The position numbers and the translations under genes were made by a program. From Paracoccaceae bacterium (GTDB taxonomy: Bacteria; Pseudomonadota; Alphaproteobacteria; Rhodobacterales; Rhodobacteraceae): a DNA stretch of 64,000 bases. Positions 1-11,884 of this stretch are shown in pieces (within the stretch, counting starts at the first letter, position 1; each line of letters starts with the position of its first letter). The DNA lies in the NCBI GenBank assembly GCA_958296035.1, contig OY282431.1, positions 3,084,037-3,148,036 on the forward strand, given 5' to 3'. The notes below the pieces were generated by a model. It saw only the letters and a list, made by a program, of their open reading frames with translations. It was not told the DNA's origin and did not search any database.

Positions 1-621
1 TGGCGTCGGTTCGCTCGTCTTTTCAGGCAAAGAACCAGAAATCGAGTCTTTACTGAAAGGAGTAGGTTCGCAGACAAATACTGTCAGGTTAACTTGGCCG
101 ACAGACTGAAGCAGTTGAAGCCAGGGCATGTTGCGGTAGTAGATATTGCCCAATTGCCAGATTACCTTCAAAGCTTTGTGGTTGCAGACATAATCTCTGC
201 CTTGAGAGAAGCAAGGACGGGTGAAGTCAACGAAGATGAACCCGATGCTGTTGCCGACGGAAGGACATTTGTACTTTTTGCAGATGAATTGAATAAGTTT
301 GCTCCACGGCAGAGTGGCAAGCGGTCGTTAGTTCGATATCTGCGCGAAGTCAGTGAACGTGGGCGCTCAGAAGGGTTAATCCTGTTCGGGGCAGAACAGT
401 TTCGGACCAGCGTTGACGAACGAGTGACTGGCAATTCAAGCACACATGTGTTCGGGCGTACAACAGCAGTGGAAGCCGGGAAAGACCCTGAAATAAGGGC
501 TCGACCTCAATCCAAGCGTGTACCTTTCTTGAGAAAGGGAGAGTTATTGGTCAGTCATACCAGATTTAGCTCTGGCACCCTCAAGCTTCGCTTCCCTCGC
601 AACGCCTATCGGCCGGGTTGA
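1..621 (+). CDS. HerA-like P-loop ATPase, C-terminal part (5' end outside window)
   Basis: The frame is open from base 1 and ends at a TGA at 619-621. A Walker B-like segment, FVLFADELNKFAP, is followed by an RYLREVSERGRSEG segment and then LILFGAEQFRTSV. This is the usual order of the HerA/FtsK-type ATPase C-terminal half (acidic strand, arginine-rich helix, sensor strand). GHVAVVDIAQLPDYLQ matches the strand that precedes it in HerA proteins. The Walker A half lies outside the window. The stop is 4 nt before the next gene, so this is the first visible member of a four-gene operon. The first 90 bases read more like protein in frame +2 (VGSLVFSGKEPEIE) than in frame +1, so a frameshift near 85-107 is possible. 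HerA proteins are hexameric DNA translocases or pumps; a role in this operon is inferred. Confidence 0.7.
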   Translation, partial: WRRFARLFRQRTRNRVFTERSRFADKYCQVNLADRLKQLKPGHVAVVDIAQLPDYLQSFVVADIISALREARTGEVNEDEPDAVADGRTFVLFADELNKFAPRQSGKRSLVRYLREVSERGRSEGLILFGAEQFRTSVDERVTGNSSTHVFGRTTAVEAGKDPEIRARPQSKRVPFLRKGELLVSHTRFSSGTLKLRFPRNAYRPG

Positions 622-625
622 CAGC

Positions 626-2224
626 ATGCCATCTACTTCTGGTCCAATACTTGGTGTCCATCTTCTTGAGAGTATTACTCTCGGAATGTACAGCAATCCC
701 CTTCACTGCATACGTGAATATGTTCAGAATGCCTTCGACAGCATCCGGAATGCACGGAGGCTTGGTCAGTTGGAGCCAGAGGAGGGGCGGATTGATATTC
801 GAGTAGACCCTGGAAATGCGCGGATAGTGATTGAAGATAATGGAACAGGGATGACTCCGGAAGAAGCGGTCGTAAAGCTTGTCGATATCGGTGCATCCGA
901 GAAGGCCAGCACATCCGTGCTAGCGGCAGGTCATGCCGGGTTTCGAGGAATCGGTCGCTTGGCAGGTATCAGCTACTGTAGGCAGCTGCACTTTGAAACG
1001 TCTGATGGTGGACATACCACATGTAGAATCAAGTTTAATGCTGAAGCGATCAATAAACTAACTAGACCTTGTCAAAAGCCAGTAACGATCGTTGACGCTA
1101 TCAACCGCAATTATAAGGCAGATGATTGGAAGACTGAGCAAGAATCGAGATTCTTTAGGATTATTCTTGAGGGTGTAAAAGATGAACAGCTGATGAACCC
1201 AGACGTTGTTCAGCAATATCTAGAGATGACTGCGCCCGTGCGATACGATTCCTCCCAGTGGAGGTACGGGCCGAAGATTTTGTCCATTGCAAGAAGGGCG
1301 AACGCTTCCGAGTCGATGGACACAATTAGGTTGTTCATTTTAGACAGTGAAATAGGCACCCCGCGAGAAGTTTTTCGCCCGTTTAAGGATTGCTTTTCGA
1401 CTCGCAACGCCAAAGGAACAAATAGACGGACGGTCATTGTAAGAAAAATTAAACCGTTACCAAGTAACGGAGTTGGCCAGGGATGGTGGGGTTGGCTGGC
1501 AGTGCACGAGCGAAAGGGCGCGCTCGGGGACGTGCCCTTCAAGGGTCTCCGCATCCGTATGCACAATATCGCGGTCGGTGACGAATCTATCATTCGCGAA
1601 TTCTGGAAAACGAAACCACTTGCCCTTTGGTGTTTTGGCGAGGTCCACATCACGGGCCAGGGCATAGTTCCAAACTCCCAGCGCAACGATTTCGAACCTT
1701 CCATACAGCGCGATCAATTGTACGAGAAGCTCAAGGATGAAATGAAGCAACTTGAGCGGGAAATACGCTATGAGTCTAACCAAAGAAGCAATTCACCAAG
1801 AAAGGCAGTTCAAGAAGCCGAAAAGAAGGTGAAAAAGGCGCGCAAAGCTGCTGACAAAGGTTTTGCTTCCATTGATCACCGAGAACGAATTCTCAAGGAA
1901 TTGAACACCGCAAAAAACAAGGTCGAAAAGATTTTTGGGAAATCCAATCTTTCTCTGGAGGACAAAGAGATTCTAGAAAGCTCTGGCCAGAATGTCCAAG
2001 CTATGATCAATGAAGTCAAGAGCATTGTCAGAACAGAAGACAAAGCTAGCCTGTCTCATCTGGACCGAAAGGCTCGAAAAGTAGTTAAGAAAATATTGGC
2101 CGTCGTTAAGGATGAACTAAAGGACGACAAACTCTTTGAAGCAATAGAACGACGCGTCAATGAGGAGCTTCGGCCCGGCAAAAAGAAACCTCGAGCTGAT
2201 GTCAAAGCGAATCTTGCTCGTTGA
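626..2224 (+). CDS. GHKL (Hsp90/MORC-like) ATPase, first of two
   Basis: 532 residues. A GHKL ATP-binding fold sits at the N-terminus: N-box EYVQNAFDS with E31, N35 and D38; G1 box DNGTGM at residues 71-76; G2 loop GHAGFRGIGRLAG at about 102-114. Residues about 350-362 carry GEVHITGQGIVPNSQRNDFEP-type sequence, which is shared with the second GHKL gene downstream. The last 160 residues are lysine- and glutamate-rich and probably helical or coiled-coil. GHKL proteins of this kind act as ATP-driven clamps. The start at 626 lies 4 nt after the HerA stop, and the 3' end overlaps the radical SAM gene by 26 nt, so translation is coupled. Fold assignment is secure from the motifs; the cellular role is not known. 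Confidence 0.85.
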   Translation: MPSTSGPILGVHLLESITLGMYSNPLHCIREYVQNAFDSIRNARRLGQLEPEEGRIDIRVDPGNARIVIEDNGTGMTPEEAVVKLVDIGASEKASTSVLAAGHAGFRGIGRLAGISYCRQLHFETSDGGHTTCRIKFNAEAINKLTRPCQKPVTIVDAINRNYKADDWKTEQESRFFRIILEGVKDEQLMNPDVVQQYLEMTAPVRYDSSQWRYGPKILSIARRANASESMDTIRLFILDSEIGTPREVFRPFKDCFSTRNAKGTNRRTVIVRKIKPLPSNGVGQGWWGWLAVHERKGALGDVPFKGLRIRMHNIAVGDESIIREFWKTKPLALWCFGEVHITGQGIVPNSQRNDFEPSIQRDQLYEKLKDEMKQLEREIRYESNQRSNSPRKAVQEAEKKVKKARKAADKGFASIDHRERILKELNTAKNKVEKIFGKSNLSLEDKEILESSGQNVQAMINEVKSIVRTEDKASLSHLDRKARKVVKKILAVVKDELKDDKLFEAIERRVNEELRPGKKKPRADVKANLAR

Positions 2225-3848
2225 ACCTGGATACAGGAATAAGTATCCACCGCTTGGTTTGATGAAACTGGCTGCGTACCACCGAAACCGGGGCGACTAT
2301 ATCCGTTTTGCTAAAGTAGGCATCGACCGTAAAGGTTCTTCTATTCTGTCGGCCGAAGGTACTTGGGACCGAGTTTATGTTACGACTCTTTTCAGCTTTG
2401 AGTGGACTAGAACATCCGTAGCAATTGATGCAGCAATAGTGGCTGCGGGCAATCAACCAGAACGTGTATTTGTCGGGGGGATTGCGGCTTCGCTTATGCA
2501 CAATGATTTTGTTGTTGTGCCACGCTGGGCGGGGGTACGCTTCATCAAGGGACTGCTTGACGGTCCCCCAGCGATATCTTTGCAACTATGTGAGGTCGAC
2601 GGAGATTTTGGCGCGGACGACACGATCGGGGTTCCGATTGAAGAGTTGATTCCAGACTATGGCATCCTGCAAGATACACGGTACTCATACCCCGTACACG
2701 ATGCCTATTTTGGTTACGCTTCTCGGGGTTGCGTCCGTAAGTGCGCCTTTTGTGGGGTACCAAAACTAGAAGGTGGTCAAAGAGAAATGCCGCCCTTGAC
2801 CAACTTGGTAGAGGGAATCAACACTGCCTACGGAAAGAAAAAAGACCTCATCCTAATGGATAACAACATAACTGCTTCTGCGAGGTATCGGGAAGTAATT
2901 GCAGAGATTCGCGATTTGGGATTTACACCCGGTGCGGTAATCAGTCGCAGGAACTCACGGAAAACAAAAAGGCGCGTCGACTTTAATCAAGGTGTGGATG
3001 CGCGAATTCTGGCCAAGTCTCCCATGTATCTTCGCGAGATGGCTACAATATGCATCAGCCCTTTGCGGATAGCCTTTGATCACCTTGGTCTGCGCAAAGT
3101 CTATGAGATTGCAGTTCGAATGGCTGCCGATAACGGTATTACCTCACTCTCAAATTATATGCTTTACAATTTTATGGAAAAGCCTCCTGACCTCTATGAG
3201 AGAATGCGGCTTAATATCTCCCTCAATCGAGAGCTTGGCCTTCGGATCTGGTCATTTCCTATGAGATATCAGCCGGTAACGCTTAAAGACCGCTCCCATG
3301 TCGGGAGGCACTGGACACGCTACAGCCTTCGGTCTTTTCAGATTATGCTTCAAGCCACACGTGGAGTTGTCAGTGGCAGCGAAAATTTCTTCAACGAAGC
3401 ATATGGCTCCAGCAAGGACGAGTTTTGCCGACTGCTCTCCCTTCCACATGCGTTCTTATATCATAGGACTCACTATAAGGTAGGCGAAGGGCGTCCCATT
3501 TTCGATGAATATCTGGCCTTGCGTAGACGCCTCTCCGTTAGTCAGGAAGTCGAGTTAGGTGATCTACTTGCTGGGCCTGCAATAGATGGACGATCGCTGC
3601 AGAAGCATTACGAGGAAATTGCTGGCGACCGGTCAATTGATCATTTGATTCGGCAACTTGTTACGTTTCACATGCTTGACACTAGACACCGCTTGGACAG
3701 CGAAGGCAAGAGGTCCCTACCGATGTTTCAGTTTGTGGAAAGTGCATCAGAATTACCAGCGGATGATGAATTCATCGAAGATGCCGGCCTTTTCGATCAT
3801 GAAAGCTTCCGGGCGCCGGATTTGGCCAAATGGAAGCAACCGGTTTGA
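2199..3848 (+). CDS. B12-binding-type radical SAM protein
   Basis: 549 residues from the ATG at 2199. This start gives MSKRILLVEPGYRNKYPPLG, a typical start of B12-binding-domain radical SAM proteins; an upstream in-frame ATG at 2160 would add 13 residues lying wholly inside the GHKL gene. The radical SAM cluster motif is CVRKCAFC (C178, C182, C185), which binds the 4Fe-4S cluster that cleaves SAM. It is followed by LMDNNITAS and by DFNQGVDARIL...ISPLRIAFD, which recur in one radical SAM subfamily. The substrate is unknown. It lies between two GHKL ATPase genes, overlapping one by 26 nt and the other by 19 nt, so it is a core operon member. It is not viperin-like: no nucleotide-cyclase-type substrate motif or neighbour is seen. 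Confidence 0.85.
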   Translation: MSKRILLVEPGYRNKYPPLGLMKLAAYHRNRGDYIRFAKVGIDRKGSSILSAEGTWDRVYVTTLFSFEWTRTSVAIDAAIVAAGNQPERVFVGGIAASLMHNDFVVVPRWAGVRFIKGLLDGPPAISLQLCEVDGDFGADDTIGVPIEELIPDYGILQDTRYSYPVHDAYFGYASRGCVRKCAFCGVPKLEGGQREMPPLTNLVEGINTAYGKKKDLILMDNNITASARYREVIAEIRDLGFTPGAVISRRNSRKTKRRVDFNQGVDARILAKSPMYLREMATICISPLRIAFDHLGLRKVYEIAVRMAADNGITSLSNYMLYNFMEKPPDLYERMRLNISLNRELGLRIWSFPMRYQPVTLKDRSHVGRHWTRYSLRSFQIMLQATRGVVSGSENFFNEAYGSSKDEFCRLLSLPHAFLYHRTHYKVGEGRPIFDEYLALRRRLSVSQEVELGDLLAGPAIDGRSLQKHYEEIAGDRSIDHLIRQLVTFHMLDTRHRLDSEGKRSLPMFQFVESASELPADDEFIEDAGLFDHESFRAPDLAKWKQPV

Positions 3849-5347
3849 CTAGTCCAGTCAAGAATCGGTTCATCAAACAACCACCTGAGCAAGCAGACCT
3901 GGTAGGAAGTTCCATACTCAATCTAATAACTGCAGGAATACATAGCGACCCTCGCTCACTGTACCGAGAATACCTGCAAAACACTGCTGATTCACTTTAC
4001 TGCAACTCTAGACAGTCAAAGCGTGTTGAAATCATGATTGATCCCGTTGGTCGTGAAGTTAGCATCCGAGACTTTGGAAACGGTTGGTCGGCTACCGATG
4101 CTGTCACTCACCTTGTCCCAATTGGCAAGAGCAACAAGGTGCGTGGTGTTGATTCCGGTTTTAGGGGAGTTGGTCGCCTTGCAGGACTGACTTTTGCGAA
4201 TTGTGTGACTTTTCTAACCCGAAATTCTCCTGACAGTACAGTAACACGCGTATCATGGAATGGTCTAGAACTTCGACAGCGGGCACGCAGCAATGACTCT
4301 CCAGAGCAAGCGATCAAACAGAGCACGTCAGTTGATAGTTTATCCAGCGATAATTACCCAGGACACTTTTTCGAGGTAAGGCTAACGGATGTGGCTCGTC
4401 ATGCGGCAGCGGCTTTGCTTAACCGCGAGGCCGTTGGTCAGTACATCGCCGAAATTGGACCAGTGCCATTCGGGCCTAGTTTCCCGTTCCGCGAACGTGT
4501 TGCAGCACAGTTGAGCCAACATCCTGCAACTAATCGGGCTCTTGACGTTTTCATTCACGGTGGGGATCGGATACTTCGCCCCTATAAAGAAGGGATTGTT
4601 TTCTCAAATGGATTTTGTGACCCTTTTGTCGATCTTGAATCGTTTTCCGTACCCTCAGCTGACAACCATGATATTGCTGCCACTGGCTGGATTGCCCATT
4701 CTTCGTACGTTCGAGCAATTCCGAAATCACTAGGAATCCGTGGAATTCGAGCCCGAGAAGGTAATATCCAAATCGGTGGCGAGGCTGTATTTGATCACCT
4801 GTTTCCGGAAGCAAGATTCAATAGATGGTGTGTTGGAGAAGTTCACGTGGTCGATTCACGGATTGTTCCTGATGCGACTCGCAACTACTTCGAGCCAGGG
4901 CCTCATCTTCGAAATCTTGAAAACCACCTGCGTACAATAGCTAGGTCAATCACAAGGAAATGCAGGTCAGCTTCCTCAAAGCGCCACAGGAAGATGCGTT
5001 ACTTTGCGGACATTCAGCGTTGGGAGGAGGCATTTGAACTAGCAGCATGTGGCTACTTGGCTGTTGAAGATGCGAGAAAGCTTGTTGCAAATACCTTGGA
5101 GGAAATGCAGCAATCTCAGGCGACCAACTCAATAGGTATAGACCAAGATACTTCAGTTGCGGAGATTAAAACCGATTTGCAGGCACGTCTGAAGGCATTT
5201 GAAATTCCGAATAACGGATCAAAGTACAACGGTCTAGACCCTAGTGAACTGCGTGTATACCAAACAGTTTGCCGAACTTTAGCAGAGACTCTGTCATCAC
5301 CGAGGCAGGCAATAGATGTGATTGAAGCAGCGCTTGCCGCTCGATGA
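3830..5347 (+). CDS. GHKL (Hsp90/MORC-like) ATPase, second paralogue
   Basis: 505 residues. The motifs parallel the gene at 626: N-box EYLQNTADS (E47, N51, D54), G1 box DFGNG (81-85, replacing DNGTG), and G2 loop SGFRGVGRLAG at about 109-119. It also shares GEVHVVDSRIVPDATRNYFEP with the first paralogue. The two proteins are clearly related but diverged, so they may form a hetero-oligomer; that is inference. The gene overlaps the radical SAM gene by 19 nt and is the last member of the operon. The following 300 bp contain no gene. No C-terminal nuclease domain is evident; the tail is helical. Confidence 0.85.
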   Translation: MEATGLTSPVKNRFIKQPPEQADLVGSSILNLITAGIHSDPRSLYREYLQNTADSLYCNSRQSKRVEIMIDPVGREVSIRDFGNGWSATDAVTHLVPIGKSNKVRGVDSGFRGVGRLAGLTFANCVTFLTRNSPDSTVTRVSWNGLELRQRARSNDSPEQAIKQSTSVDSLSSDNYPGHFFEVRLTDVARHAAAALLNREAVGQYIAEIGPVPFGPSFPFRERVAAQLSQHPATNRALDVFIHGGDRILRPYKEGIVFSNGFCDPFVDLESFSVPSADNHDIAATGWIAHSSYVRAIPKSLGIRGIRAREGNIQIGGEAVFDHLFPEARFNRWCVGEVHVVDSRIVPDATRNYFEPGPHLRNLENHLRTIARSITRKCRSASSKRHRKMRYFADIQRWEEAFELAACGYLAVEDARKLVANTLEEMQQSQATNSIGIDQDTSVAEIKTDLQARLKAFEIPNNGSKYNGLDPSELRVYQTVCRTLAETLSSPRQAIDVIEAALAAR

Positions 5348-7161: not shown

Positions 7162-7665
7162 GTGGGCTACTCTGCCAAGCAAGTCGCCAATCATTTCCTG
7201 CAAAAGTACGGGATGAATGGCATTGCACCTCTCAAGTTACAGAAGCTTGTTTTCATTGCGCATGGTTGGCATCTTGCGATTTATGATCAACCCCTGGTTG
7301 ATGATGAATACGCTGAGGCATGGAAGTATGGTCCTGTATTCCCGTCTCTCTACCATGAATTCAAGCATCGAGGTGCTTTACCGATCATTGAACTCGCCAC
7401 GGATTTCGAGTTTTCTGATGTCGACGACGTCGACAGCATTAGTGAAACGACGCCTGAAATACCTCGTAATGACGAGAATACGCGGAGACTGCTTGACAAG
7501 ATCTGGGACGTGTACGGAAAGGCATCAGGTATTCAGCTTTCCAACATCTGCCACGAGCCCGGAACGCCATGGGACCTGACTAGAAAGAAAATCGGGTGGC
7601 GAAGCAATTCCAATATTGCTGATGAAATCATCAAGGAATACTACAAACTGAAAATCGAGGATTAA
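7162..7665 (+). CDS. Panacea/DUF4065-domain protein, likely antitoxin
   Basis: 167 residues. The N-terminus YSAKQVANHFLQKYG...ISPLKLQKLVFIAHGWHLA-like block (here IAPLKLQKLVFIAHGWHLAI) and the following EAWKYGPVFPSLYHEFK are the hallmark of the Panacea (DUF4065, SocA/GepA-like) family. The start is taken as the GTG at 7162; no better ATG exists upstream of the conserved block. Panacea proteins act as antitoxins for many unrelated toxins, including small membrane-acting ones. The next frame, immediately downstream, encodes a small protein with two hydrophobic segments, which fits such a pair. The family is confident; pairing is inferred from position. Confidence 0.8.
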   Translation: MGYSAKQVANHFLQKYGMNGIAPLKLQKLVFIAHGWHLAIYDQPLVDDEYAEAWKYGPVFPSLYHEFKHRGALPIIELATDFEFSDVDDVDSISETTPEIPRNDENTRRLLDKIWDVYGKASGIQLSNICHEPGTPWDLTRKKIGWRSNSNIADEIIKEYYKLKIED

Positions 7666-9123: not shown

Positions 9124-9660
9124 TCAATGTATCACACTTGACTCGTGTATCCCTTGCGTCTCCCATTCCCTGATGGTGAGGTAGCCAAACACCGCGTTTG
9201 ACAGTATCTGCAACCCTTCCCACAGCTGCTGCGTCCCCGGGAGTGGCTGCCGCTTCAAGGGATGAAACCCCGCCTGTCCCGCCGTCAGCACCACATACCG
9301 CTCCATGGTCATCTCGGGCGGTCCCGTGACTTGCAAAAGCTACGCTTCCAGGACAGCGCCCGCAGCATCGGCGGGCTTCTCCCGCGCCAGCAGGGCAAGG
9401 CCCCAGACCCGAAAAGCGGTGATGGCATCGAAGGCCAGACACTTCCTCAGAACATCGGCGCGGTCCAGCTTACGGTCCTCCATGCGCGTGCCGGTCTTCA
9501 GGGCATGGAAAAAACGCTCTATCCGCCAGCGCAACTCGTAATACCGCACCACCTCCTCGGCACCCGCTGCATCAGCTGATCCCCCGGTGGTCAACAACAG
9601 CCAGCCGAGCACCTTCTGCAGACGCCGCGCCGCCACCGAGGCCTGACTATTAGCATCAAT
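9124..9660 (-). pseudogene. IS4-family (DUF4338-type) transposase C-terminal remnant
   Basis: The minus strand reads GWLLLTTGG...VVRYYELRWRIERFFHALKTGTRMEDRKL and AFDAITAFRVWGLALLAREKPADA, followed after a frameshift near 9338 by TMERYVVLTAGQAGFHPLKRQPLPGTQQLWEGLQIL. The copy at 43.6-44.1 kb has the same blocks. WRIERFF includes the catalytic-glutamate YREK-like region of Tn5-type enzymes. Only the 3' third survives, abutting the IS66 relic. Confidence 0.7.
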
Positions 9661-10110
9661 ATTGATCCAGGACCCGCCCTAAACCACCACTGCAACGTTT
9701 CGAAACGTAGCATGCCAGAAATTTCTGGTTGCTGCATTGCTGTTTAGCCTGGCATCTGAAACAAGGTCAGCTAAGGAACCTATCCTTGATTACTTGGATG
9801 TTGTTGCCGAGTATGGGGGAATGCACCACTCAATACCACCTAGGAAAGGACAATTGAATCAAGATAGATTGAATTTAGGTGTTGATCTTCTGCCGACTGC
9901 CATGCGCCACGGTGTTAATCAAGCCGGTAGAATGTAAAGTTAGCCCTGTCAGGGGCCACAAAACAAACTTGCAAAATATTTATGATTTATACCCCAAGGT
10001 CTATATTGACACATATCCACAAAGCGTGATCAGCGCTGCATTTCAGCAAGGCGGGGTGGTTAACAACCGCAGTGCAATTCAAAAGGGGAACTCCGCAGGG
10101 ACAGGAAATC
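9661..10110. other. Stretch without a recognisable gene
   Basis: AT-rich. An open frame at 9737-9937 (66 codons) and its neighbours show no family resemblance and no good ribosome binding site. It may be the remains of a gene disrupted by the IS relics on its left. Confidence 0.35.
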
Positions 10111-10323
10111 ATGAACAACAAGAGACATTCTCAAGGACGCACACTGGTGTTGGCCGCATTGAAAGGCATCTCATCAATTCAAAACTTGTACCAAGCTAGA
10201 ATTTCGGCGGTCAAGTACACAAAATCTTACGGTCAAGACATGAATGCTATTGGGCGTGACATGTGGCGTGCGGTAGAATATTGCCAAAACGACAAGGCGA
10301 AAGAGAAACAAGACTCAGCGTAA
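10111..10323 (+). CDS. Small hypothetical protein
   Basis: 70 codons from the ATG at 10111, preceded by GGACAGGAA at a suitable distance. The product is hydrophilic and basic, with a helical central part (LVLAALKGISSIQNLYQARISAV) and no cysteine motif. I recognise no family. It stands alone between IS relics, so it could be a real small gene or a chance frame. Confidence 0.3.
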   Translation: MNNKRHSQGRTLVLAALKGISSIQNLYQARISAVKYTKSYGQDMNAIGRDMWRAVEYCQNDKAKEKQDSA

Positions 10324-10590
10324 AGGGCCAGCTTTAGCTGAGACAACTGGCAGTAAGATTGATAGCCAGAACGCCCGATTACCAATTCAGTTACTTAATG
10401 GGATGCCGGATGAAACGAGGACCGCATAAATCCAAGTCAGCAATTTCCGCTAACATTTGTTCATGATCAAGGATGAGGCCTCATCACGTTTTGCAATATC
10501 CTGCAAGTCACGCTTATGTTTAGCCAAATACATGTGAACAACTATTAAGTGGCAGATCAGTGCAGCCGCCAAAACACCCGCACTGCCGTC
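10324..10590. other. Short intergenic stretch before a transposase relic
   Basis: No gene, RNA or repeat seen; AT-rich up to the start of the GC-rich transposase DNA near 10560. Confidence 0.35.
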
Positions 10591-10659
10591 ACCTCAACCC
10601 AGCCCCAGAGCTCGTTCGTAATCTCCGATCACCTCAGACAAGCAGGTTTCCAGGCAGCA

Positions 10660-11884
10660 ATAAGTCATAATGCCTGCAACACACCCTGGCCTCGCCTCCG
10701 CAAGCATCTCCTGATGCCCGGTCTTTTGCGCATCACGCGCACCGTCTTCCAATACATCAAGGACCCACGGGCCAGCCGAGGCCTGCCGCCCCTCGACTGC
10801 CTGATGTCGGGTCAGGCGGTGTTTCTTCTCAAGTGTCCATCCTTGTTGACATTCGACAACGCGGCCCGCCTTGCGCCCGAGCCGGCGCTTATGGACAATC
10901 TCCTTCGCCACTTCGAGCTCCAGCGCGTCCCGTCTGACAATGCCCTGCGGGAACGCCTACACGCAACTGTTTGCGGCCTTGCAACGGGGCAAGGTCCTGG
11001 AGTGCTTCACGGTGCTGGACGGCCACTCTGTGCTGTCAATCGACGGCACCGGCTACTTCTCGTCGAAGAAGGTGCACTGTGAGCGGTGCTGCCAGACGCA
11101 GCACCGCGACGGCTCTGTGACCTATCGTCACCAGATGCTGGGAGCGGTGCTTGTGCACCCCGTCCAGCGGGCGGTGTTTGCACTGGCGCCGGAGATGATC
11201 CGGCGACAGGACGGGGCGAGCAAGAACGACTGCGAGCGCAACGCTGCCAAGCGCCTGGTGGCCGACTTCCGCCGCCAGCACCCGCATCTGCGCACAATTG
11301 TGGTCCAGGATGGCCTATTTTCGACCGCTCCGCACATCGCCTTGCTCAAGGAACTGGATTTGCGCTTCATTATCACCGCCAAGCCCGGCGACCACAACGT
11401 GCTGTTTGCCCATGTCGAGGGCAGCGATGCGGTCGAGCATCGGCAGGTGGTCGATACCGATGCCAGACGCTTCCACGACTTCCGGTGGTGCAACGATGTG
11501 CCCCTCAATGCCAGCCATGGCGAGTGCAGGGTCAACTTCCTTGCGTGCCGGCAGACCGACACCAGGCGTGGCAAGGTGACCGTTTTCACCTGGGTCACCG
11601 ACATTGATATCACCGCCGACAACGTCACCGAGTTGATGAATGTCGGCCGCTCGCGATGGAGGATAGAGAACGAGCTCTTCACGACGCTGCAACGCCATGG
11701 CTATCAGTTCGAGCATAACTTCGGTCACGGCCGCCAGCACCTGTCGGCCCTGTTTGCAACCCTGGCCATGCTGGCCTTCCTGATCGACCAGATCCAGGCC
11801 CGGTGCTGCGCCCTGTTCAGGGCCATGCACCGGCGCTATGCCTCCAACCGGGCGCTGTGGAACAGGCTCGGGAATTCAGGCTAG
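10660..11884 (+). pseudogene. DDE transposase (unclassified IS4-like clan), one frameshift
   Basis: The N-terminal part is read in one frame up to about 10950 (LKCPSLLTFDNAARL...QRVPSDNALRERLH). The rest continues in a second frame with TQLFAALQRGKVLE, SIDGTGYFSSKKVHCERCC, NDCERNAAKRLVADFRRQHPHL, IVVQDGLFS, FIITAKPGDHNVLF, DVPLNASHGECRVNFL and RSRWRIENELFTTLQRHGY. The catalytic triad candidates are the D of IDGTGYF, the D of VVQDGLF and the E of WRIENELF. Only the shift at about 10950-10960 breaks the gene, so the decay is fairly recent. No terminal repeats were found. Confidence 0.7.

Follow-up and report, generated by a model that had tools for sequence, protein, structure and literature searches.

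What might a bacterium do with a HerA-family DNA translocase, two GHKL ATPases and a radical SAM enzyme encoded end to end? Genes for these proteins open the window, by which we mean the whole 64,000-nucleotide stretch analysed here, and a sequence-only reading had described them as a four-gene operon and a candidate new defence system.

A five-gene operon at the edge of the window

The four open reading frames lie on the forward strand where they had been placed, with the small gap and overlaps described for them. They encode the last 206 codons of HerA (1..621; assigned by its reading frame, a profile search against the PDB and its Walker residues), GHKL_A (626..2224, 532 aa; Pfam, motifs and tree), the radical SAM enzyme, hereafter rSAM (2199..3848, 549 aa; CX3CX2C motif, PHROG match and signature blocks), and GHKL_B (3830..5347, 505 aa; Pfam, motifs and adjacency to rSAM). 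By these coordinates, HerA and GHKL_A are separated by 4 nt, rSAM and GHKL_B overlap by 19 nt, and GHKL_A and rSAM overlap by 26 nt when the ATG at 2199 is taken as the rSAM start; a further in-frame ATG, at 2160, is the start used in the list of reading frames. The window start cuts through HerA: the frame seen there is the 3' part of a 558-aa gene (G000:C1:3082981-3084657) that begins upstream, and directly before this gene, outside the window, lies one for a 367-aa NurA nuclease (G000:C1:3081843-3082946, equal to 9844-10947 of locus L002). This rules out a four-gene operon. The order is NurA-HerA-GHKL_A-rSAM-GHKL_B, and what had been taken for a DNA pump alone belongs to a pump-nuclease pair.

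NurA matched its Pfam family (PF09376) with 28.3 bits against a cut-off of 21, and the D and G of its first DGS are kept in all six sequences that reach this column, two of the eight aligned rows ending short of it. Despite this recognition, a NurA profile found no match in the PDB at E up to 1. The HerA profile matched PDB entry 7f6d, annotated as HerA, at 1.2e-39 and, more weakly, 8xau (0.00074) and 9c1m (0.0059), while its match to Pfam DUF87 stayed under the cut-off for that family. Walker A residues K183 and T184 and Walker B residues D447 and E448 (the latter pair at 283-288 of the window, forward strand) are present in 9/9 aligned HerA sequences.

Both GHKL proteins matched Pfam HATPase_c_3 over its cut-off (5.9e-12 for GHKL_A, 2.5e-6 for GHKL_B). 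They share 27% identity (E about 4e-35) and a GEVH...RNxFEP block, which bears out their description as paralogues. In GHKL_A the N-box (E31/N35), D71xGxG and GFRGIGR are intact in all seven aligned sequences. GHKL_B keeps its N-box (E47/N51) in 52/52 sequences and every other position of its ATP-binding motifs in 52/52 but one, where the count is 50/52; among solved structures its ATPase domain lies nearest to HtpG/TRAP1, and its clade is supported at 100/99.

The CX3CX2C iron-sulphur/SAM motif of rSAM (2730..2753, forward strand; C177, C181 and C184, numbered from codon 2202) is conserved in all 60 aligned sequences, the window's included. Further signature blocks are EPxYxNKYPPLGL, DNNxxAS, VDFNQGxDxR and RIAFDH. 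The protein matched PHROG 9298, "radical SAM domain protein", at 4.1e-36; its Pfam Radical_SAM match was below threshold (0.005), no curated Pfam or NCBIfam family scored above cut-off, and the rSAM core matched RimO weakly (0.00024 and 0.0026). The DxHxxG motif typical of B12-type radical SAM proteins was not seen in the rSAM consensus, and no match to Pfam B12-binding appeared at E up to 1. The label "B12-type" first given to the enzyme is thus unsupported, although the protein may contain a divergent B12-binding domain.

Recurrence, module exchange and mobility

A sequence-pattern search through 84,980 genomes yielded 218 confirmed rSAM relatives, of which the best 80 were taken; the family is not rare. 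The five genes occur in identical order at ten loci: the window (L002), L026, L043, L044, L049, L050, L051, L064, L077 and L192. NurA is cut by the contig end in L026, and HerA and GHKL_A of L064 were identified by tblastn together with the list of reading frames, since antisense frames overlie them. Six loci (L207, L212-L215 and L273), five of them from viral collections, hold four-gene versions with a single GHKL gene. In agreement with the sequence-only reading, the gene order is thus conserved across genomes.

The set is nevertheless not a fixed one. Where at least 1.7 kb of downstream sequence was available, GHKL_B adjoined rSAM at 78/78 genome loci (77 by reading frames, one by tblastn), out of 81 loci in all, three being too short to judge. 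Most of the remaining rSAM-GHKL_B loci have different partners, namely ParB/SNF2 or DndB-like modules, which rules out that all four genes always travel together: the rSAM-GHKL_B pair is constant and its partners are exchangeable. An SNF2 helicase is found in 42/81 rSAM loci, and many loci with ParB/SNF2 modules have no recognised nuclease. GHKL_A is partnered by either NurA-HerA or a PIN-like nuclease (PIN_8), and the GHKL_A proteins of these two kinds of loci cluster together with moderate support (91/83). On the rSAM tree the distribution of NurA-HerA requires six changes, and modules have therefore been exchanged. Two labels call for caution in this comparison. GHKL_B of L074 was found by tblastn, and because the contig begins 360 bases before rSAM, the "none" label of this locus on the tree is uncertain; and because the rSAM proteins of L034 and L035 are identical under two phylum labels, the taxonomic assignment of a metagenome bin cannot always be trusted. 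In a version from a Marinitoga phage, no GHKL gene lies near the operon genes, and together with the single-GHKL versions this shows that two clamps are not essential.

Of the other rSAM loci read in the same genus and family (L020-L025), each belongs to the ParB/SNF2 or the DndB-like kind and lacks NurA-HerA. The genome that carries the window has no match to the DndB family (PF14072, 0/1 genome), and its sole SNF2 match spans 72 residues and contains an internal stop; a ParB/SNF2 or DndB half of the system was thus not found elsewhere in it.

Comparison of L050 with L051 gave dN/dS values of 0.06-0.16 for all five genes, which are under purifying selection; because the gene order also recurs, the operon is not a chance arrangement. 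Its GC content is low for its own genome (48% vs 54%), rSAM is present in 5/9 genomes of the same genus, and a strong HerA match was found in 3/398 genomes of the phylum, the three samples searched comprising 398, 396 and 385 genomes with some genomes occurring twice. The five-gene type was found neither on the plasmids searched nor elsewhere in the class sample; NurA-HerA types also occur on contigs from viral collections, and rSAM-GHKL_B modules on plasmids and chromosomes. Recombinases and known defence genes lie near the operon genes, and at four IMG/VR loci integrase and repressor families are nearby. PADLOC matches at least as good as 1e-60 covered eight family names for 95 flank proteins against one for 94 control proteins, a comparison that counts matching models rather than proteins. 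These surroundings are mobile and defence-rich, not those of core metabolism, so the sequence-only reading withstands both of the refuting conditions that it had named.

A putative self mark and its rivals

The nearest other HerA clade consists of five loci (L216, L274-L277) in which the NurA-HerA pair is accompanied by DNA methyltransferases; we know of no published name for these operons. N6_Mtase/Eco57I proteins precede NurA in four of the five (by scanning in L216, L275 and L277, and in L274 by 60% identity to the L275 protein), and N6_N4_Mtase proteins follow HerA in three (L216, L276 and L277), with no methyltransferase 3' of HerA in L274 or L275. A one-for-one replacement between rSAM and a methyltransferase therefore holds at 3/5 loci only. 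HerA of L277 shows 35% identity to the HerA studied here, with the stretch ISGISGLATKTSY common to both. When long branches were removed (L208, L210, L278 and L282), a HerA tree with the SbcCD-type proteins as outgroup placed the rSAM type (16 rows, 91/91) as sister to the methyltransferase type (5 rows, 90/99); in a fuller tree these two and the Marinitoga phage HerA form one unresolved fork (91/84). Judging by the neighbouring operons, these relationships suggest that rSAM may stand in for a DNA methyltransferase.

We propose to read the operon as a restriction-like system against invaders that moves horizontally between genomes. NurA-HerA would degrade DNA, while rSAM and GHKL_B would provide a self mark; we put the probability of this reading at a little under one half. 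An anti-invader role is supported by the genomic context. As effector, a HerA hexamer would feed double-stranded DNA into the NurA nuclease and so destroy it, activities that are established for relatives of both proteins and that we infer here. GHKL_A would act as an ATP-gated clamp controlling the effector and as an adaptor common to the alternative PIN_8 nuclease; the clamp function of either GHKL protein is a prediction. Together with its constant partner GHKL_B, rSAM would make the mark by which invaders are told apart from self. The likeliest such mark is a modification of host DNA, and rSAM would thereby take the role of the methyltransferases in the neighbouring operons. That rSAM acts on DNA is argued by analogy with those operons, and its substrate may instead be protein, RNA or nucleotides. 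More tentatively, the DNA mark could be made by radical-SAM chemistry in place of a methyltransferase. In such a scheme rSAM and its GHKL clamp would do the modifying; restriction would fall to interchangeable nucleases (NurA-HerA, PIN-like) governed by the second GHKL clamp, and alternative targeting to ParB/DndB-fold NTPases with an SNF2 motor. The mark might be an undescribed base or backbone modification.

Alternatively, though we consider it rather unlikely, rSAM could modify a protein (HerA, NurA or a GHKL protein), with GHKL_B serving rSAM as a chaperone of the Hsp90 kind or as a clamp on the substrate. The nuclease would thereby be switched on or off, in what would still be an anti-invader system. 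The invariable pairing of rSAM with GHKL_B, the affinity of the latter's ATPase domain to HtpG/TRAP1 and the weak similarity of the rSAM core to RimO, a protein-modifying enzyme, agree with such a role. However, rSAM has one and the same partner whether its locus carries NurA-HerA, PIN_8 or no recognised nuclease. No particular nuclease is therefore the common rSAM substrate, and the methyltransferases in the nearest HerA clade also speak against such a role.

It is less probable still that rSAM makes a small molecule, such as an altered nucleotide, which would either inhibit invaders or act as a signal to nucleases and ParB-fold proteins. Viperin, which makes an altered nucleotide, is a precedent, and ParB- and DndB-like neighbours are common. 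ParB-fold proteins are described in a passage of PMC12704722 as binding CTP, ATP or GTP. However, no viperin family appeared among the Pfam and NCBIfam matches of rSAM, a ParB-fold gene is missing from the window operon, and no DndB-family match was obtained in its genome as a whole. Of the modification of a small molecule or macromolecule first suggested, the small-molecule part is unsupported, and the nearby methyltransferase operons favour DNA.

A role in double-strand-break repair, in which NurA-HerA would resect ends with the other genes as accessories, appears improbable. End resection is known for NurA-HerA (in a portion of PMC12977600), and SbcC and SbcD genes adjoin more distant HerA matches (L211 as annotated; L279, L281 and L210 by sequence reading). 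However, those SbcCD-type HerAs fall outside the rSAM-type clade, which is sister to the methyltransferase type, and the patchy spread of rSAM and HerA, the integrases on viral-collection contigs, the low GC content and the defence-rich flanks are at odds with a repair function. Over 19 kb on and about the operon, the list of reading frames, partly scanned, held no SbcC-sized gene other than that of a SIR2 protein. Equally doubtful is a selfish function of a mobile element (exclusion of rival phages or plasmids, or addiction-type stabilisation), since the plasmid and viral-collection copies it would explain are accompanied by chromosomal ones, and it would alter mainly who benefits, not the biochemistry.

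Relation to known systems

For the restriction-like system that we favour, no description turned up in the open-licence papers searched, nor any named system joining radical SAM, GHKL ATPases and HerA, in line with what had been supposed for this locus. PADLOC-DB 2.0.0 (2023), queried with the partial HerA and no NurA, gave its best matches to general models (HerA 0.0012, GHKL_A 4.9e-5), and neither PADLOC with that query nor NCBIfam returned a useful match naming a system. HerA-nuclease systems and GHKL-based ones are each known on their own; we have not found a description of the two joined with a radical SAM enzyme.

As in the NurA-HerA genes of Deinococcus and archaea, NurA (PF09376) directly precedes HerA, whose profile match to 7f6d is strong (1.2e-39); those genes serve repair and in archaea adjoin mre11 and rad50 (according to part of PMC12977600), whereas rSAM and GHKL genes accompany the pair here. 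The SIR2-HerA and DUF4297-HerA anti-phage systems, in which a HerA hexamer is coupled to an effector enzyme (as portrayed in part of PMC11291478), resemble the operon in combining HerA with an effector and in the weak 8xau and 9c1m matches. In contrast to them, the effector here is NurA, and GHKL ATPases and rSAM are added. The MORC/paraMORC restriction-modification systems (Iyer 2008, PMC2292703), of which sections 4-5 of that paper name neither HerA, NurA nor radical SAM, likewise place GHKL ATPases in operons with nucleases, and the SNF2 helicase of 42/81 rSAM loci adds to the likeness; they comprise an SF2 helicase, an endonuclease and a DNA methylase, whereas the window operon has the nuclease only, plus rSAM.

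Likeness to Dnd phosphorothioation lies in the DndB-like (DGQHR) genes that many relatives carry next to rSAM and in the PAPS-reductase-like genes near its phage relatives, but DndB has no match in the window's genome, and DndC/D/E and DndFGH are absent from the operon. Around the phage relatives, PAPS-reductase-like (9/150) and ParB-like families are neighbours and are not among the commonest of the distance control. DNA methyltransferases occur in the near set as well as in the far one, with more such families near, and because the families overlap nothing is concluded from them. If the proposed reading is true, it would provide a first function for this rSAM family, which has distant phage relatives near PAPS-reductase-like and ParB-like genes.

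Closest of all by HerA phylogeny, the methyltransferase operons (L216, L274-L277) share the same NurA-HerA pair and carry methyltransferases where the window operon has GHKL and rSAM genes. Should rSAM replace a methyltransferase, a new DNA modification would be sought in, for example, Azospirillum sp. TSO22-1. The record of this strain does not carry the label of a metagenome bin, and its genome has both a complete five-gene operon (L064) and, as its second rSAM locus, one of the ParB/SNF2 type (L057).

Gene order and protein families of the operon

The gene order of the operon is NurA-HerA-GHKL_A-rSAM-GHKL_B (a nuclease, a DNA translocase, and a radical SAM enzyme between two paralogous GHKL ATPases), and we put the probability that it constitutes an anti-invader system at roughly three in four. 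Within the window (G000:C1:3084037-3148036; the genome is one contig of 3.64 Mb), the ORF list bore out the gene coordinates of the sequence-only reading: the 3' part of HerA at 1-621, GHKL_A at 626-2224 after a 4-nt gap, rSAM at 2199-3848, overlapping GHKL_A by 26 nt, and GHKL_B at 3830-5347, overlapping rSAM by 19 nt. Upstream DNA read beyond the window completed HerA to 558 aa and revealed a preceding gene of 367 aa, placed by Pfam in NurA with a score above the cut-off. The GC content of the operon is 48% versus 54% for the window.

The Pfam match of HerA was weak (0.0019, below the cut-off); a profile of eight sequences matched the solved HerA 7f6d at 1.2e-39, and the Walker A and Walker B residues were identical in 9/9 sequences. 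ATP-binding motifs are kept in both GHKL proteins (alignments of 52 sequences for GHKL_B and 7 for GHKL_A), whose N-terminal parts match HtpG/TRAP1, that of GHKL_A additionally MutL. For rSAM, CX3CX2C was present in 60/60 aligned sequences, picked from 81 loci on length and redundancy, together with other invariant blocks. Against solved structures, nothing matched rSAM beyond the core motif (best 0.0021), and no curated family scored above the cut-off; its initial designation as a B12-type enzyme finds no support in Pfam.

The rSAM-GHKL_B pair and its partner modules

Across 84,980 genomes, pattern-based scanning yielded 218 confirmed rSAM relatives, the best 80 of which span 51-76% identity. 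Among these 80 and the window, GHKL_B adjoins rSAM in all 78 loci with at least 1.7 kb downstream. The same 81 loci (L064 being reassigned after a second search) carried a ParB/SNF2 module in 25 cases, ParB/SNF2 with the DndB-like DGQHR in 11, DGQHR in 10, NurA-HerA in 9, PIN8 with DGQHR in 6, PIN8 with both ParB/SNF2 and DGQHR in 6, and PIN8 alone in 5, while no module was seen in 9, several of them on short contigs. NurA-HerA never accompanied another module in the flanks read at these 81 loci. HerA of the operon type was detected in 0/19 genomes with other modules, an empty result that by itself shows nothing; as a control, a profile with three rows added and two dropped gave matches by the same route. 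Azospirillum sp. TSO22-1 carries two rSAM loci in one genome, one of the ParB/SNF2 type (L057) and one of the NurA-HerA type (L064).

In the GHKL tree, from which L273 was left out, the rSAM-side GHKLs form a single clade (100/99), and the nuclease-side GHKLs, found with HerA or with PIN_8, cluster at 91/83. The single GHKLs of four-gene operons and of two further viral-collection loci split over both groups, L212 and L213 with GHKL_A, and L207, L214, L215, L226 and L232 beside GHKL_B. On the rSAM tree (81 rows), the NurA-HerA label requires six changes, all six forced by well-supported branches, and is also clustered (shuffled mean 8.7; 1/500 shuffles as low). The GHKL clades and the six label changes thus argue that nuclease modules are exchanged against a constant rSAM-GHKL_B.

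Among 72,556 plasmid records, rSAM retrieved 17, of which 12 were strong (>50% identity, coverage at least 97%). GHKL_A retrieved 16, namely the same 12 (coverage 66-91%) and four more (16-23%), with GHKL_B proteins included among the matches to this query.

Two further observations concern these loci. A conserved quartet of ParB-like protein, small protein of ~140 aa (no PHROG match), SNF2 helicase and ParB-like protein lies beside rSAM-GHKL_B in L016 (3939-7878) and relatives. L034 and L035 encode identical rSAM proteins with similar neighbours, yet the metagenome bins are labelled as two different phyla, and one label is probably wrong.

Occurrence and relatives of NurA-HerA

Searching a sample of 398 genomes of the phylum with HerA gave four matches: the own genome, two complete operons (L192 in G184; L077 in G280) and a weak fragment (G282). 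Among 385 genomes of the class the own genome alone matched; rSAM occurs in 5/9 genomes listed for the genus. Six plasmid records contain HerA at 23-39% identity, and the two that were read lack rSAM and lie among exonuclease and SMC-type genes. Of five HerA relatives in IMG/VR, four lie within NurA-HerA-GHKL-rSAM operons (L212-L215; L212 with a 1.1-kb gap behind NurA) and the fifth (L216) beside methyltransferases. The 34 flank proteins of L212-L215 include three each with matches to integrase families and to repressor-type regulators. The phage collection holds a further four-gene operon in an unverified gut clone (L207). In Marinitoga camini virus 1 (L208 5998-9824), rSAM adjoins HerA and NurA, both on the other strand, with no GHKL, which may be a minimal version or a counter-system.

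In the phylum to which L103, a Terriglobia bin, belongs, 11 of the 396 genomes searched had HerA matches. The ten read (all but G830) comprised one rSAM operon (L273), four loci with DNA methyltransferases (L274-L277), two with SbcC/SbcD, identified by reading sequences (L279, L281), and three unassigned loci (L278, L280 and L282). With L216, the methyltransferase type numbers five loci. The protein before NurA matched N6_Mtase and Eco57I in 3/3 scanned (L216, L275, L277), and its L274 counterpart is 60% identical to that of L275; L276 has no methyltransferase there. The protein after HerA matched N6_N4_Mtase in 3/3 scanned (L216, L276, L277), so that in 3/5 loci a methyltransferase fills the place taken here by GHKL and rSAM; L274 and L275 have none after HerA. 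We know of no name for this operon type, which reads Eco57I-like N6 methyltransferase (4/5), NurA, HerA, then N6/N4 methyltransferase (3/5). An Mrr endonuclease lies near the operon in L275. Compared with the window, L277 shows 35% identity in HerA, with the same P-loop stretch, and 29% in NurA. A HerA tree without long branches and with an SbcCD-type outgroup places the 16 rows of the rSAM type (91/91) as sister group to the 5 rows of the methyltransferase type (90/99); a fuller tree leaves the branching of these two and the Marinitoga HerA unsettled.

Defence context, possible rSAM target and known systems

Between L050 and L051, dN/dS of the five genes was 0.10 (NurA), 0.06, 0.14, 0.07 and 0.16; between the window and L026 (four genes), synonymous sites were saturated (pS 0.80-0.84; pN 0.17-0.34). 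The commonest non-system clusters nearby were tyrosine integrases (9/103 loci) and serine recombinases (8/103), as read from one representative per cluster and with one locus counted twice (L091 and L109). Flanks of 14 loci (95 proteins of at least 200 aa) matched eight PADLOC families at <=1e-60 (PDC-M41B, MkoB, Dsr1, AbiEii, PDC-M30B, AbiEi, Aga_Nuclease and UzuA), versus one (type IV restriction) at 1e-60 in control stretches of the same genomes (94 of 188 proteins scanned). At 1e-10 there were 43 families in flanks versus 19 in controls, an excess that is supportive only, because families rather than proteins were counted, antisense ORFs are possible and the window's own SIR2 gene is in the flank set.

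Upstream of the window, ~4.7 kb from NurA, the own-genome locus encodes a 1275-aa SIR2_2-domain protein (L002 1344-5171, minus strand; Pfam 8.6e-17), reminiscent of defence-associated sirtuins by size and domain. Directly upstream of NurA lies a decayed gene (L002 ~9387-9790) with TIR-domain-like frames, stops and a frame change. Soon downstream of the operon follow a SocA/Panacea-domain protein of toxin-antitoxin type (window 7162-7665; 3.1e-22) and transposase-like ORFs on both strands (window 9340-11884).

On viral contigs, 91/98 distant rSAM loci were recognised, 71 once near-copies were removed. Their neighbours (150 of 229 proteins scanned) include PAPS-reductase-like proteins (phrog_424, 9; phrog_2302, 7) and four ParB-like families of 2-3 members each, absent from the 25 commonest control families, which reach down to two members (149 of 176 proteins further off); methyltransferases occur in both sets. 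These neighbours point weakly to nucleic acid as the rSAM target, and that rSAM marks DNA is a tentative reading to which we give somewhat less than even odds. In Phocaeicola phage PV4-TP1, genes annotated as PAPS reductase and DNA methyltransferase lie near a short rSAM relative (L209 5974-6891).

Among the matches listed, we found no published description of the operon's combination in papers on radical SAM with HerA, NurA, GHKL, DGQHR, ParB/SNF2 or phage modification, nor in the MORC/HerA, NurA-HerA defence and DndB/ParB literature, an absence that is not proof because the search covered open-licence papers only. One listed paper, PMC11229311, came up for radical SAM, HerA and NurA together. 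In the mechanism we propose, rSAM-GHKL_B would serve as a marking module and GHKL_A as a gate on a NurA-HerA effector, which would destroy DNA by analogy with HerA-NurA and DUF4297-HerA, as described in PMC12977600 and PMC11291478.
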